Part shown: piece by piece, positions 924 through 44,449 of the stretch
Position numbering within the stretch: the stretch's first letter is position 1
Layout of the letters: every line of letters starts with the position of its first letter
Source: Desulfocapsa sp.
Lineage (GTDB): Bacteria > Desulfobacterota > Desulfobulbia > Desulfobulbales > Desulfocapsaceae
Assembly: GCA_013792135.1 (NCBI GenBank)
Contig: VMSP01000014.1
Span: 1-44,449, forward strand
Direction of reading: 5' to 3'
Length of the DNA: 44,449 nt
Made by a program: the position numbers and the translations under genes
Notes under the pieces: model-generated
Database searches by the model: none
Told to the model about the DNA's origin: nothing
Seen by the model: the letters and a program-made list of their open reading frames with translations, nothing else

Positions 924-1409
924 TTAGGCAAATGAAGAAGATGTAATTTCGACTACCTCAAACTCACGAGTTCCGCCAGGCGTCTTCGCAGTCACCTCAT
1001 CTCCTACCTCTTTTCCAAGAATACTTCTACCCAAGGGCGAAAACACAGAGATAGAACCCTTCTTAACATCAGCCTCTTCCGTGCCCAAAAGCTGATAGCT
1101 AACCTGAGCATCCGTTTCAAGATCCAGCAAGGTCACCACCGTTCCAAAGACCGCCCGTTGGGTAGGCACATCCATACAATTAATCACCTCGGCACGCCCC
1201 AGTTTATCCTTAAGTTCCATAATTCGCCCTTCTATATGCCCCTGTCGCTCCTTGGCAGCATGATATTCAGCATTCTCCTTCAGGTCACCATGAGCACGGG
1301 CAACTTCAATCGCCTTGACCACATCATTACGCTCAATTTTCTCAAGACGCTGGAGTTCATTACGAAGCTTCTGATACCCCTGAGTCGACATCGGTACTCG
1401 TTCAACCAT
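924..1409 (-). CDS. greA: Transcription elongation factor GreA
   Basis: GreA enters the secondary channel of RNA polymerase and stimulates cleavage of the backtracked transcript, releasing stalled complexes. The 161-residue product has the family's two parts. The first is an N-terminal antiparallel coiled coil with the tip region ARAHGDLKENAEYHAAKERQ, including the acidic DLKENAEY signature. The second is a C-terminal FKBP-like globular domain ending in TREFEVVEI. The frame is open further upstream, but the ATG at 1409 follows AGGAGG at a suitable distance and gives the usual GreA length, so I chose it over the longer frame from 1463. The gene lies 77 bp downstream of the large TPR gene on the same strand and may be co-transcribed with it, though no terminator or promoter was recognised in the gap. 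Confidence 0.95.
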   Translation of the reverse strand: MVERVPMSTQGYQKLRNELQRLEKIERNDVVKAIEVARAHGDLKENAEYHAAKERQGHIEGRIMELKDKLGRAEVINCMDVPTQRAVFGTVVTLLDLETDAQVSYQLLGTEEADVKKGSISVFSPLGRSILGKEVGDEVTAKTPGGTREFEVVEITSSSFA

Positions 1410-1486
1410 TATTTCCTCCTGTGAACATAAAAAAAACTGCAAATTATGGAGCAAACACCACACAATCAGCAGGAATACAAATAGAA

Positions 1487-4400
1487 TTACCAGCGATAGA
1501 CCAGCGACAAAGCAACATCTTTGCGGATCACCGGACCTCCCTGAATTATTTCGAAACTGCTACTTAATAAGAAATGACGGCTCATTTCAAGAAAAATATC
1601 ACCGCCAAAGGTATGACTGTCATACCCGCCATTATCATAACCAAAGGAATAATCGAGGGTATAGTAACTGGGAGCACTGCGACCAAGCACATCTGCAGCC
1701 AGTTGATGCTCAAAATGGGCAGAAACTAAATTCTGCCAATATTCCTTAGGACTCCAGTAGGGATGATCACCAGGCATAAACCCATTTTCATAGGAAAAAT
1801 CCCGGCCCTTATTCACCTCGGCATTATGCTGAAATTCCTGACCGTAGGTAATCTGCAGCAGGGTCGGTTCACTATGAATGATATAAGTCGCCCAGACATG
1901 ATAACGACTCTGATGATTAGCATCACTATACTCTCTGAATAAATATTCCCCACCACAAAAGAGGCGCGGCAAGATATCCATCCTGACACCACCTTCCACA
2001 TCCCGCCTGCTGATCCCCTGTTCAAGGGCTTGGACAGTATCATCCACCACATCCTGATCCAGACGGACAAAAGCATGCAGATCATCCCCTATGCGGCCAC
2101 GCATCTCCAGATGGAAGAGTGGAATAATATCAAAATTGGGTTGATTATACTCATCAACAGATTTATCCACACCAACTCGAGTAATAAAGTCAACATTATA
2201 ATGAGGATAAAAAGAATATGCTGCCAGAAATCTGTTCCGCCAGAGGGCCTGATCAGTATCCTCGGAAATGGCGTGAATGGTGCTCCAGCTGATATCCATC
2301 TCCTGACGAAGAGTCGGCAGCATCCAGACACTGGCCCCACCTCGTGTCTGTTGCATATCAAAATATCCATCGCGACCGCTGAGAGAAGAATATCCGGAGT
2401 CAATCATCCCCCGGGGTTCCCTCTTCAGACTGTTACGCTGCACAGACTCGGCTAGCTCAGGATAATCAGGATTTTCTCGTTCAATCTCTTCATAAAGCAA
2501 GGCCTCCTTCCCCAAAAACCCAAGACGGCTGTAGATCCCGGCAAGATCAAAGAGAGACTCAGGAGAAGGGTTCTTTTCAACCACCTCCTGATACTCTTTC
2601 ATGGCCTGATAATATGCGCCCTGCGCCAACGCCCGCCTGGCAGAGAGCTCCTTGGCAACTAATTGTTGCCAACGAAAATCGGCATAGAGATCAGCTCCGA
2701 TTCTACCAGCAGGCTGTCCACACTGAGTCATGACAAATGCAGGATCCATCACTACAGTCAGGCGATCAGGTTCCGCCGGATGAGTAAAGGTAATTACATT
2801 CAAGAAACTTTGCTTAGGAGGGGGTAAGTCAAGTTGGATCTGTTGTTTTTCTATCCTCTCAGTAAAAAGCCTCTCCACAGAGGGCTGCAAAACAGCATCA
2901 TACACTGCTACCGCTGCCACCCATTGCCGATCAGCCCACAGGGACCTGGCAAGGATTAACTTCTGCCATACTAACAAATGACTGCTGTCAGGAAAGGTCA
3001 TAATCCCTTTCACTAGTCCTAGCTGTTGAGCAGGAGCCAGTTTTTCTATAATTGTCCGAAAAGATGCTTGCTTAAACTCAAGCTCCAGTAATTTCCGAGT
3101 GAAACTAAGCTCCGAAGGATATTCAACAACAAGGCCCTGCAAGACAGAAAAAGATGCATCCAGGCCTCCCTGTTTCTCAAGGATATCAGCATGGACGATC
3201 CTGGCCGCAATTGAGTCAGGCACCTCTTTTAAGGCCATCAACACATGTTTATTGGCCGCTTCAATGTCTCCATATGTTTTTTCTAACTGTGCGGCCTGCA
3301 TCAGACTCTGGAATCTGTTGCCATAATTTTTACTGAGGACAGCATCAACCCTATCCCCTTTCGCCTTTTCTGACAACCCAGCGTCAAGTTGCTGTCCAAT
3401 AATCAAAGGCTCCAGATCCAGCGGATGCTCCTTGAAAAGTTTCGCTACCAGTTCTTGGCCCTTTCCATATTGTTTATCCTGCAAGTAAAAATAAGAAAGT
3501 AAAAGATCTACCTGATACTTCATTTCGGAATTTCGAGGGCAATGCTGGACAAGAAGTTTCCGATATTCCAGGATACTCGCGACTGCCTTACCCAATTTTC
3601 CACTAGCGGCCAGCACCCTTGCTCGGAGTAAGACAAAATCATGTTCGTTTTCCTCGCAGGTTGCAGGAATGACAGGATACCCTGTTTGCTCAGACAATAA
3701 CGTAACCCACGTCCAGGCCAGATCAGGTTCATTACTCTCCAGAGAGAATTCAACCAATTTACGAAGGACAGATCCAATTGCCACACCATCCACCAACATC
3801 TGCCTCAAACCCTGTTCGGCCTCAAAAATATTTCCTTCCCTGTACAAAGCATCAGCCAGGGCAAGACGTATCTCGGCAATGCGTCCAGTTTTCCCCTGCC
3901 CTACCTCAATCAATTCTTGATAGATTTTTTTGGCCTCTGCTGCCAGTCCTGTTTCCAACAAGACCCTGGCGTACCGCATATCTATGTTTAACCGCTCCGG
4001 ATCTGACTTTGCATCCCGGCGCAGCATATGATAATGCTCCTGATACTGACTGATCAAACCAAGCTGTGCCGCCAAATCCATACAACGTAGCCGAATATCC
4101 CGATCGCTTAGTCTCGTCTCCAGATAGCGGTTATACCAGACTAATGCCTGCTCGGAGAGTCCACGCAGATCAGCAAGTCGCGCACTGGTCAACAGGAATC
4201 TTGGTTCCTCATCCACAGTTTCCACCATTCCTGACTCCAGCGGCATCGAGCCACCATCTGAGATCATCACGTCCTGAGGCAATAGCCCCAGGAAATGGTC
4301 AACCTGGCCCGTTTCCTTCTGTTCAAGAAACAGTTCAGCAAGTCGCAGAATAACTTCCTTGTTCCCCGGTTCATGCTGGTGAATAATGGCAAGCACCTCA

Positions 4401-40897: not shown

Positions 40898-43603
40898 TCA
40901 TACCATTGCCGACAGAACCACCTCGTTCAATTGTTGTATGGTATAAGGTTTTTTAAGCAAACCTTTAACTCCTATAAGAAGAGCCCTTTTCACCTCGTCG
41001 CTTTACGAGTAACCGCTGACGACGATCGCCCTTTGCCTGGGATAAATCTTGACAATCTGCCCATATGTCTCGCGGCCATTCATCCCTGGATCCATCAGCA
41101 TATCAAGGAGTACCAGATCCGCCTTGTTATTTTGCAAATAGGCGATTGCCTCTTCACCAGACTTTACCGTTGCCACTGAACACCCGAACAATTCCAGAGA
41201 TTGCTTTGCAATATCAACTAATTGAGGCTCGTCATCCACCACCAGGACATGCCCTCCATTTCCTGGTATAACCTCCAACTGTTCCTTCTTATCATTGCTG
41301 GTTACTGTGTTATCATTATTGACAAGAGGGAATATCAGCTCAAAGGATGCACCTTTCTCGCTGCTGCTGACAGTAATGCTGCCCTTGTGATCCTGGATAG
41401 TATTCCAGACAACCGACAACCCCAAGCCAGTACCGCTTCTCCCCATGACCTTTTAATATAAAATGGTTCAAAAATCCGAGCCAGATCATCGGCCGATATA
41501 CCCGTTCCGCTATCTCTGACAGTGAGCACTACATAACTACCTGGTGCAAGACCCTTATTCTCTGCCATTGCTACATCAAAAGCCTGCTCGCATGTTGAGA
41601 TCGTAATACGTCCTGATCCACTTATGGCCTCGGCGGCATTTATCATCAGGTTCATCAAACACTTTTTAATATGTGTCGGAGAACAGAATATAGCACTCTT
41701 CCTGGTCTCAATATGCGATTCAAAGCGAATATCAGAATAGAGAGATTTCAACTTTTTCCCTTCCGGCGACCTGATATATTCCTCTATTAATACATTGATC
41801 TCCTTTGCTTCCCTGACACTGGCCACTCCACGGGCCACGGTCAACAGATCGGCAACAATGGCGGCAGCTCGTTTTCCTGATTCCTTGATGGGTTCAACCA
41901 AGGCTTTCAGCTTATTATCGGTGAGCCATTGCATGAGAATCAGATCGAGATAGCCAACGATGCCGGAGAGTATATTATTCAAGTCATGGGCAACCCCGCC
42001 TGCCATCAGACCTATGGCTTTCATTTTTTGAGCACGCTGCAACCGTTCTTCTATTGTGGCCTTTTCTTTCTGAACCTGTTTGATTTCTGCCAGATCAATA
42101 TCAATACCGTACATTTCCTTCTCACTTTTGGTATTGGTGAGCATGACGTGAGAAGAATAAACATCGACCAAACTTCCGTTTTCATGACACCGGATTACTT
42201 CCGACGAAGAGGGGGCGATATCCAGGTCAAGCCAGTCGCTTGTTGTTTGGACAAATTTTGCACGCTCGGATTGAGGAATAATCAGATCCTCAATCTCCCG
42301 GCCCATGGCCTCGGCAGCGGTATATCCATAGACGCTCTCACTGGCGCGATTCCAAAAAATAATATTCCGATCACAATCATAGCCCTGCACTGGGATCAAT
42401 GGCAAGTTGGCAGCCAAATGACGGAATCACTGTTCACTTTCGCCAAGCTGCGCGGCCCGTTGTACCACCTTTTCTTCCAACGTGGAGACAAGGTCTTCAA
42501 TATGTGCCGCCATGGAATTAAAGGCCCGCGCCAGTTGCCCCAATTCGTCATCTCCTGCCTCTTCACATCGTACATCCAAATTCCCTTTGGTTAACTCTTG
42601 GGCACGATCCTTCATCCTGAGAATGTTCAAGGTAATATCATGGTCAACTTTTCTGGCCAGCAACATCAAAACCACCACACAAAAAACTGACACGCCCGAC
42701 ATACCAATAAGAACCGCTTTATGGGCAAAATGTATTTTCTCGTGATTTCTGCAGGTCTCTTTCTGGGCAAATTGCAACAGAGATTGCGAGGTCATGCGCG
42801 TCGTTGCCGACTGAATGGTAAAGTCATTAAAGGCACCCTTGATTTCCTGATCAATCGCCACAATCTCTTCAGCAATTGATCGACATTGATTGAGCATGAC
42901 CAGGAGCGCTGTTTTTTCCTCAGGCAGAATAGCCTGATCATTGATAATGGCAAGATGCAATGATGACGCAACATTGAAGGCAGATTGGATAATCGGTCGT
43001 TGATGATTGATCAGATATTCCTGAAAAAATCCTTTTGCTTTAAGATGAAGAGCGAGAAGATCAGTATGCGATGCAAGAGAAGCTCCAAAGATACTGATAC
43101 TACTTGTCATCTGATCGACCAGACCATTCACCGGAATATCCCGTTTCGTAACCAGTTCTACCGCAGGAATGGATGTTTCAGTAAATCGTTTGGCCATCGA
43201 GATTCAGATCAACTTGTGGTGCCTGCTGGTTCTGGGAAGACTGTGAACGATAAAGAAGATCTCGCAGCTCATTACTTAAGGCAATGACACGCGCAGCCTC
43301 TCGCACCGAGGGTTGGGCGTACTGTTTGTGAGCCGCGGCAATGCCGACATGCTGCGCGTGCAGAAAAAAGTCCCCATTCAGCCGCCGAGCCAATTCCATG
43401 CCACTGTCTATTTCCAGCACCAATCGTTCGATATTCATACTGGTCAGGATTTTCTCTTCCATCTGACGGACATAAAAAAGCGCAAGACAACTTGCCCCAA
43501 GCATTATGGCAATAAGAAAGATCAGCAAGAAAAAAGACAGAGAGATTTTTTTCGTTATCCCTGCCCTAGGCCAGGCTCTGGTTATGGAGGGTAGCAACCT
43601 CAT
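40898..43603 (-). pseudogene. Hybrid sensor histidine kinase, decayed by four lesions
   Basis: The pieces read, N to C: a membrane segment (ISLSFFLLIFLIAIMLGASC), a periplasmic helical sensor region, a second membrane segment (VLIGMSGVSVFCVVVLMLLA), HAMP (NILRMKDRAQELTKGNLDV), PAS (DRNIIFWNRASESVYGYTAAE), HisKA with the phosphohistidine in GGVAHDLNNILSG, HATPase (DSGTGISADDLARIFEPF, then GTGLGLSVVW) and a receiver (VLVVDDEP, LVLLDMLMDPGMNG, then KKPYTIQQL). Lesions: a frame change near 43195-43215; an in-frame TGA at 42427-42429 (SEQ*FR, probably CGA originally); loss of one A at 41451-41454, breaking the HATPase; and an in-frame TAA at 41003-41005 inside the receiver. The ATG at 43603 follows the upstream binding-protein stop by three bases. 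The gene cannot produce a working kinase. Confidence 0.88.
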
Positions 43604-43606
43604 TGT

Positions 43607-44310
43607 TTAGTTTGCTCTTTTAGACGTATCAGGAAGATAGTTATAGATAATGTTGGATTCAAGCCCCACTGCACCCTGAGACGGATCAAGCAGCTGCAGA
43701 ACTTTAAAGGCGGGTTGACCGCAATCACCGAATTGGTCACAAGGCAGAGTACCGGTAACACCTTTGAAGGTCTTGATGCCATGGAGGGTGTCGCGCAATT
43801 TTTGCCATCCAATATGGAGAGTTCCATTTTATTCACGAATTGCTGTTTGCTCGATGGCATGAAAAAGCAGATTCGCGGCATCATAACCGTTCAGATAATA
43901 ACTGACGGATGCCTTCTCCCCATATTTTTTTCATAGACAGCATCCATCTGGTCAACTCCAGGGCCGGCATGACGAACCGGACCAATAAAATACATTCCCT
44001 TGGCATCGTTCCCCACCGCCTCAATGAAACTGTTTCCAATCAAAGCACCGCCACTCATCAGGACTGTCTTATTTAATGCAATATTTTTTCTGGCCTGCTG
44101 GAGAAGATGATTCCCTTCTGGCTGAAAACAGAAGAACAGAATGACCGAGGATGTGGCCGCCTCTTTTTTCAAAGGCAAGTTCCAGACCTCGCATTTGGGC
44201 TCGACCCAAAGGGGCAACCTCACCGCTCAACGCCTGAAGCACTCCGATTTTGACAGGTTTCCCGGGTGCAATGGTGACACAGCCGATACTATCGCTGCAG
44301 ACAAACAGGG
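43607..44310 (-). pseudogene. LivJ-type periplasmic binding protein, decayed and interrupted by an intron
   Basis: The pieces match the branched-chain amino acid/amide ABC-type binding protein family. The N-terminal GCVTIAPGKPVKIGVLQAL and SGEVAPLGRAQMRGLEL come first. Then, across a deletion junction near 44125-44150 that removes an estimated 150-190 residues, FQPEGNHLLQQARKN and GPVRHAGPGVDQMD. After a lost A in the A7 run (43925-43931), SYYLNGYDAANLLFHAIE follows, then an in-frame TAA at 43829-43831 and finally FKGVTGTLPCDQFGDCGQ. The 5' exon is cut off by a group II intron at 44311. The stop at 43607-43609 directly precedes the kinase ATG, so the binding protein and kinase were probably a ligand-sensing pair. 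Confidence 0.85.
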
Positions 44311-44449
44311 GTAGAGTAGGAAGCTGATTTACCAATCAACGCATGGGACTTTTGCTTGACGCCTCGCCGCTCGCGGCTACTACGTGTCAACCAGCATAAT
44401 CGTCCTTCAGCTTCCCCTCATCAAACCGGACGTGCAGTTTTCCCGCATC
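44311..44449 (-). mobile_element. Group II intron, 3' end (domains V and VI), truncated by the window edge
   Basis: Read on the minus strand from the edge, GATGCGGGAAAACTGCACG then TCCGGTTT is the distal part of a group II domain V: an upper stem with a GAAA-type loop and the CACGUCCGGUU 3' strand. Domain VI follows. GGAAGCTGA (complement of 44407-44415) pairs perfectly with TCAGCTTCC (complement of 44319-44327), then a G-U pair, a bulged A at 44317 and a GAG/CTC pairing. The element ends TACTCTAC at 44311, with AC at the 3' splice site and the branch A seven bases before the end. It runs in the same direction as the interrupted binding-protein gene. The reverse transcriptase, if present, lies beyond the window. 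Confidence 0.85.
44356..44390. repeat. Stable hairpin in the apical part of intron domain VI
   Basis: TTGACGC (44356-44362) pairs with GTGTCAA (44384-44390), with one G-T pair, and inside it GCCGC pairs with GCGGC. It lies within the domain VI stem of the group II intron and makes that domain about 100 bases long instead of the usual 35-45. Confidence 0.7.

Follow-up and report, generated by a model that had tools for sequence, protein, structure and literature searches.

A probable group II intron 3' end with an extended domain VI in a decayed lipoprotein gene, and other introns lying at YADD codons

Introduction

At the right-hand edge of the window (the whole stretch of DNA that was analysed, 44,449 nt, corresponding to contig C102 in an assembly of 4.2 Mb and 186 contigs), a substrate-binding lipoprotein gene read on the minus strand is interrupted by sequence of another kind, and 139 nt further on the contig stops. 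The locus raises the question of what interrupts the gene, exactly where the boundary lies, and what the interruption means for the gene. The reading that we favor, with a probability of roughly 0.9, is that positions 44311-44449 (minus strand) are the 3' end of a mobile, reverse transcriptase (RT)-encoding group II intron, inserted in the sense orientation just past the lipobox in a Desulfobulbaceae-type bacterium. Such an intron tail is an ordinary kind of element; its extended domain VI, and the inner introns sited at YADD codons, are above the routine.

Identity, boundary and fold of the intron 3' end

The original prediction had placed a group II intron 3' end at this position, and this part of it is borne out. 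RF00029, the Rfam model of domains V and VI, matched 44311-44449 on the minus strand with 33.9 bits (E 2.7e-5) and stopped exactly at 44311. This score does not reach the gathering threshold of 40 bits, as the contig end removes the match to model positions 1-8, and the identical sequence on contig C170 of the same genome, where domain V is complete, scored 52.4 bits. Covariation is strong, with compensatory changes in 12 of 36 consensus pairs of domains V and VI among 13 sequences from this and other genomes. The features assigned to the intron are as follows.

44311-44449, minus strand: group II intron 'B', 3' terminal 139 nt, with the remainder beyond the contig (RF00029 partial match; 100% identity with C170 and C30)
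44424-44449, minus strand: domain V, with part of its 5' strand missing beyond the end of the contig (RF00029; covarying pairs; full domain V in C170)
44311-44422, minus strand: extended domain VI and intron 3' end (outer stem 44407-44415 with 44319-44327; covariation; model R1)
44359-44385, minus strand: conserved module in which an AGUA / GAG internal loop separates two short helices (covariation, loop table, consensus pattern)
44317, minus strand: bulged A, predicted branch point (minimum-energy fold, covariation, sequence)

The intron terminus, CTACTCTAC, ends at 44311, the 3' end reading CTCTAC. The base at 44317 on the minus strand is an A that is left unpaired in the minimum-energy fold, and the predicted 9-bp stem of domain VI was drawn in the same fold, by pairing of 44407-44415 with 44319-44327. 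Both an AY 3' end and a bulged A, the predicted branch point, are present in the window. Folding energy was tried as proof of intron structure and rejected, since it is unremarkable (z -1.61, with 15 of 200 shuffles folding as low). Inspection by eye for EBS1-IBS1 pairing led to no claim. An Rfam scan of the whole window at gathering scores listed a single tRNA and not the intron. The intron had no match in the phage and E. coli collections, and all 42 plasmid records that were hit covered less than 80% of the query; among the best 20 of these 42, the match was to the domain V part only.

The interrupted gene and its decay

The coding sequences next to the intron are these.

43607-44310, minus strand: remains of an ABC-type substrate-binding lipoprotein gene, on the 3' exon side (homologue in locus L041, 5908-7191, 427 aa)
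40904-43603, minus strand: next gene, histidine kinase (908-aa ORF in L041; HAMP, HisKA and HATPase_c domains in pieces)

The binding-protein frame resumes at 44308. When 58 residues of this frame were used as a query, 6 loci were returned, the nearest of which, L041, is 93% identical and comes from a metagenome-assembled genome, Desulfobulbaceae bacterium LH_M57, where the 427-aa lipoprotein ORF is uninterrupted. All 6 homologous loci read through the insertion point without a stop, as the predicted insertion into a coding gene in the same orientation would have it. The window side matches L041 from 6001 onward and contig C182 matches L041 4485-5991 at 92.6%, so that C182 holds the 5' exon and the window the 3' exon of one gene. 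Since a same-genus relative carries the gene uninterrupted, both intron ends sit within the lipoprotein gene, the interruption falling directly behind the cysteine of the lipobox (identified as such by eye). As DNA, the first 171 bases of the 3' exon matched only this genome and G002, of the same genus, among 58 genomes searched.

It had also been suggested that the intron might still be spliced, leaving its effect on the gene mild, and this mild effect is not supported. Compared with L041, the binding-protein gene has lost nearly 490 bp (472 bp of L041 unmatched by BLAST plus a 13-base overlap of the window pieces; 488 as a MAFFT gap), carries an in-frame stop as well as a deletion of 1 nt near 43931, and on C182 reads AAG in place of the start ATG. 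Joining the flanks at the inferred intron ends (exon ...CAAGAC) loses the frame; placing the 5' end one base earlier leaves the joined flanks in frame with a shorter linker. Because of the other lesions and the loss of frame at the inferred ends, even perfect splicing would not rescue the gene, which, judged from its sequence, is dead apart from the intron. The 3' end, the boundary and the sense insertion stand, and a mild effect through splicing is not supported. The histidine kinase gene is likewise broken relative to L041, with deletions of 8 bp and 1 bp and two stops, and the two genes look like a block in decay.

Copies in the same genome and in relatives

The 3' end occurs three times in the genome, in the window, at C170:1879-2018 and at C30:6852-6990, with 100% identity over 140 nt in C170 (including one flanking base) and over 139 nt in C30 (including two flanking bases); the C30 copy lies at a contig end, and that on C170 is internal. 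The same CTACTCTAC runs on into three different flanks, which places the end of the repeat at 44311, in agreement with the boundary first proposed. Three 5' ends were likewise found, one on C170 and one (141 nt, 99%) at the end of each of the contigs C182 and C96. We infer that the contigs stop because of this repeat. By these counts, at least three intron copies are present in the genome, and their occurrence at different locations points to mobility in the past. As regards the insertion beside a terminator hairpin that characterises group IIC introns, the site on C182 lies within a gene, and that on C96 ∼60 nt past a terminator-like hairpin (by eye). The 5' boundary and domain I are found outside the window, with C182 holding a 5' end in the same gene.

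The two ends can be assigned to one intron family because both lie on one contig in G014, a genome of the same genus, in which the 3' part is 94% and the 5' part 98% identical. The full copy there, G014:C52:53990-55978, is ∼1,989 nt long, measured from a 5' end placed by eye to the 3' end, and encodes an intact 445-aa intron-encoded protein (IEP) that scores 399.1 bits against TIGR04416, the group II RT/maturase family (cut-off 300); of its 17 matches in the PDB, the best are to RTs of group II introns. An IEP with RT and maturase domains is thus known from copies outside the window, the maturase domain (GIIM) being present in C170. Domain I-IV RNA is likewise present in other copies, the window's contig ending at 44449: RF02003 matched the intron 5' end on C170 with 59.2 bits and on C182 and C96 below gathering (44.8 versus 49), and RF02005 matched the G014 copy with 72.3 bits. 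The 3' half of the intron had matches in 18 of 97 genomes searched, and a 521-base 5' part in 28 of the 257 genomes of the order, both counts including this genome.

The inferred 5' terminus, CTGACCG following CAAGAC, differs in its CTGACC from the canonical GUGYG, the start being judged by eye from comparison only; among 32 listed rows (one row, L091, aligned elsewhere), several relatives align from a GTGTCCG-like start. On C170, an intron-family 5' end and a 3' end flank a 1.7-kb segment (194-1879, locus L019) in which, by eye, two genes appear to encode a membrane protein and a small secreted protein. Short 3' remnants of the intron family, in which no domain V was recognised, lie at C134 2685-2804 (L029) and C131 ∼3352-3400 (L030).

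Inner introns at YADD codons

Upstream of the outer RT C-terminus on C170 lies part of a second intron that ends ...CTACTCGAC, comprising its own RT C-terminus and its domains V and VI. TTGTAGTC follows directly after this inner intron and, with one preceding T, encodes FVVMC, the residues that come after YADD in the intact G014 protein. The piece on C170, the one portion of this IEP available from the genome, begins only after the inner intron and, shortly after the nest junction, lacks 2 nt relative to G014. The contig ends before the 5' half of the nest, so that the 3' half alone is visible. The same inner 3' end is followed on C46 and C66 by FVVCF of another RT, and the 5' side of the junction is seen on C111, C153 and C6, as TATGC[CT]GATGATT|GTGTGCC, where the upright stroke marks the junction. 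Each of these contigs displays one half of an inner intron, and none spans a whole one; from their shared site, we infer that the inner 5' and 3' halves belong together.

A 20-base pattern of the 5' junction was found at 8 places in 5 of the 257 genomes of the order, this one included, and its reversed-pattern control gave 0 among the rows listed. A match to RF01999 follows the junction in 7 of the 8, the eighth (G025) running off its contig. As a DNA query, the 5' region of the inner intron returned 44 places in 28 of the 257 genomes; 30 of these became loci, 7 at YADD (6 by the scripted pattern and one, L121, by eye with GATGATA) and 23 without such a junction. Since 7 of 30 loci are at YADD, the habit belongs to a sub-lineage and not to the whole inner family. 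For that sub-lineage, the YADD codons are the inferred homing site.

Two further YADD loci were noted by eye. On C6 (1-330, L119), an inner intron lies at the YADD of a ∼110-nt RT scrap, beside an apparent tyrosine recombinase gene. At G116:C26 3535-3720 (L115), the inner intron is seemingly cut short internally, its domain I running straight into the downstream part of the outer RT.

The window copy could itself be a twintron, with an inner YADD-sited intron in its RT ORF as in C170. In its favor, C170 is identical to the window over the shared 140 nt and there the inner intron's end leads directly into the outer RT's FVVMC, and the same inner end precedes RT pieces on C46 and C66; against this, the window's contig ends 139 nt into the intron, before the nest site, and the uninterrupted IEP of G014 means that empty outer introns exist. 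We consider a nested insertion here less likely than not. Far less probable is that the intron persists at this locus only as an old 3' fragment: short 3' remnants such as those on C134 and C131 do occur in this genome, but a 5' junction of the same intron family lies in the same gene on C182, and the 139 nt show no difference from two other copies where they overlap. That the assembly wrongly joined an intron end to the gene is very improbable, because, although an overlap of ∼140 nt at contig ends resembles a graph break at a repeat, the same 3' end has three different flanks and the contigs on either side of the gene each stop, independently, at an end of the intron.

The extended domain VI and its inner module

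Apart from any nesting, the favored reading, that of a mobile intron's 3' end, leaves the length of domain VI to be described: 112 nt in the window (44311-44422) versus 39 nt in compact introns of G064 and G092. Between the domain VI arms the sequence reads CGTAGTAG-CCGCG-A-GCGGC-GAGGCG (spacing added by us). The module has as its consensus an AGUA facing RAR between two short, covarying helices, and the consensus pattern, with at most 1 mismatch, occurs once in the window and in 0 of 100 shuffles. Across 16 sequences, 96.4% of 336 cells of the module structure are paired and two-sided changes occur in 8 of 21 pairs, values to be read with the sequences being related and A3 having been fitted to the model, which favors structure. 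Shuffles equalled the module in 1 of 500 cases for the two-sided count, 12 of 500 for pair types and 0 of 500 for the covariation score, and slid versions of the structure scored far lower.

A covariance model, R1, was built from the 16 sequences. It scored 114.8 bits on the window's domain VI, the same sequence, taken from C170, being among its 16 training rows. Across the phylum, R1 matched 20 places in 11 of 395 genomes, this one included, the other 384 giving none under stricter filters; at 8 of the 15 new loci, RF00029 matched the same spot at gathering. When R1 was run over 42 sources, 30 matched, 2 of them compact and without the module, and 12 did not, some of these 12 being 5' pieces or running off the contig end before domain VI. 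The loop table drawn from these matches has 22 rows, the 2 compact rows and 6 rows from this genome or the training set being left out, and it includes the C134 remnant of this genome and some near-copies from one genome. In 17 of the 22 rows, the internal loop reads AGTA on its 5' side; on its 3' side, 21 rows have GAG, GAA, AAG, AAA or GAGG, and the C134 remnant is blank; a training row from G116 has AGGA facing GGG. An AGUA facing GAA between helices is what we take to be the bulged-G (loop E, sarcin-ricin) motif, and we propose this name for the module, in which the last loop base is A or G. The accessible part of PMC8450098 does not print the AGUA/GAA bulged-G consensus.

The module is present or absent among closely related introns. 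The compact G064 intron has an IEP that shares 80% identity with the G014 protein over 349 aa, and a midpoint-rooted tree of 14 IEPs, with long branches flagged, places this IEP in a clade of 8 (97/98) in which all 7 other rows are extended. At least 3 changes of the extended label are required on this tree, and its history may have been one gain and two losses; clustering of the label on the 14-IEP tree is not significant (90 of 500 shuffles as low). Outside the phylum, three rhizobial IEP relatives were not matched by R1, and the module pattern had 0 exact matches in viral contigs.

Proposed mechanism and comparison with known introns

Retrohoming is known for group II introns. In the intron proposed here, the RNA would fold and be bound in its folded form by the IEP, and the A at 44317 would attack the 5' splice site; the excised lariat would then reverse-splice into new DNA sites and be copied by the RT. 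The extra module of domain VI may act as a docking piece for the IEP or for the intron RNA. With the gene also broken otherwise, the insertion might have cost little.

The intron resembles bacterial group II introns with an RT/maturase IEP of the TIGR04416 type in its domains V and VI, bulged A and AY 3' end, in the RT and maturase domains of its IEP, in being multicopy and in its sense insertion, and differs from them in a domain VI of 112 nt with a conserved inner module and in an inferred 5' end of CTGACC instead of GUGYG. An extra conserved 3' RNA module in divergent introns is also a property of Bacillus introns with a domain VII, as far as the accessible part of PMC3261151 describes them. 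In those class B introns, domain VII lies beyond domain VI and displaces the 3' splice site (PMC4424553, accessible part), whereas here the extra RNA lies between the domain VI arms and the flanks diverge right after CTCTAC. We therefore rejected membership in this class, the extension being inside domain VI and not after it.

Nesting within group II introns, of which halves are seen here, would be shared with the prokaryote twintrons of Thermosynechococcus elongatus, Trichodesmium and Methanosarcina, as presented in the accessible portions of the reports cited in this paragraph. The T. elongatus site lies between the first two ATGs (PMC2882425) and that of Trichodesmium in domain I (PMC4649490), whereas the inner intron here lies at the YADD codons of several different RTs. 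Methanosarcina introns tend to insert into the RT genes of other introns (PMC1712230), and their twintrons, reported by Dai and Zimmerly in 2003 and described in PMC1712230 and PMC4424553, may use the same sites as the YADD sites here. The presence of one inner intron in two different outer introns is common to the Porphyridium plastid twintrons (PMC4476101), which differ in their domain IV target site, their truncated IEP remnants and their plastid location. The open-access literature that was searched, mostly as listings and abstracts, described neither a domain VI module like that of the window nor bacterial introns sited at YADD codons.

These observations may be combined in a tentative proposal, which we think rather unlikely to hold in both its parts. 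Domain VI of several lineages in the phylum would contain a bulged-G (sarcin-ricin-like) module, gained or lost, that sets the position of the branch helix by way of the IEP or of the intron's core; and an inner lineage, nesting in these and other introns, would have adopted the catalytic YADD codons of their RTs as its homing site, becoming a hyperparasite that always finds its target, as the site cannot mutate away. The module would be a natural add-on to the branch-point domain, and its presence or absence among close introns makes its effect on branching testable by deletion. The YADD-sited introns would be a clear-cut example of selfish elements exploiting the catalytic core of others of their kind as a target that is both safe and permanent.

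Other reverse transcriptase and intron sequences in the genome

RT matches on C86, C67 and C6:7205-7438 were set aside by eye as other RTs or fragments. Another group II intron of this genome lies on C71 (∼1372-1665, minus strand, L032), where domain I matches RF02001 and RF01998. On C40 (∼160-965, L022), a group II intron 5' end is followed by a short stretch and then by an RT C-terminus and domain V, most of the RT seeming to be missing (by eye). In the same locus, a c-di-GMP-I-GGC riboswitch was matched at 3085-3157 on the minus strand (71.1 bits).
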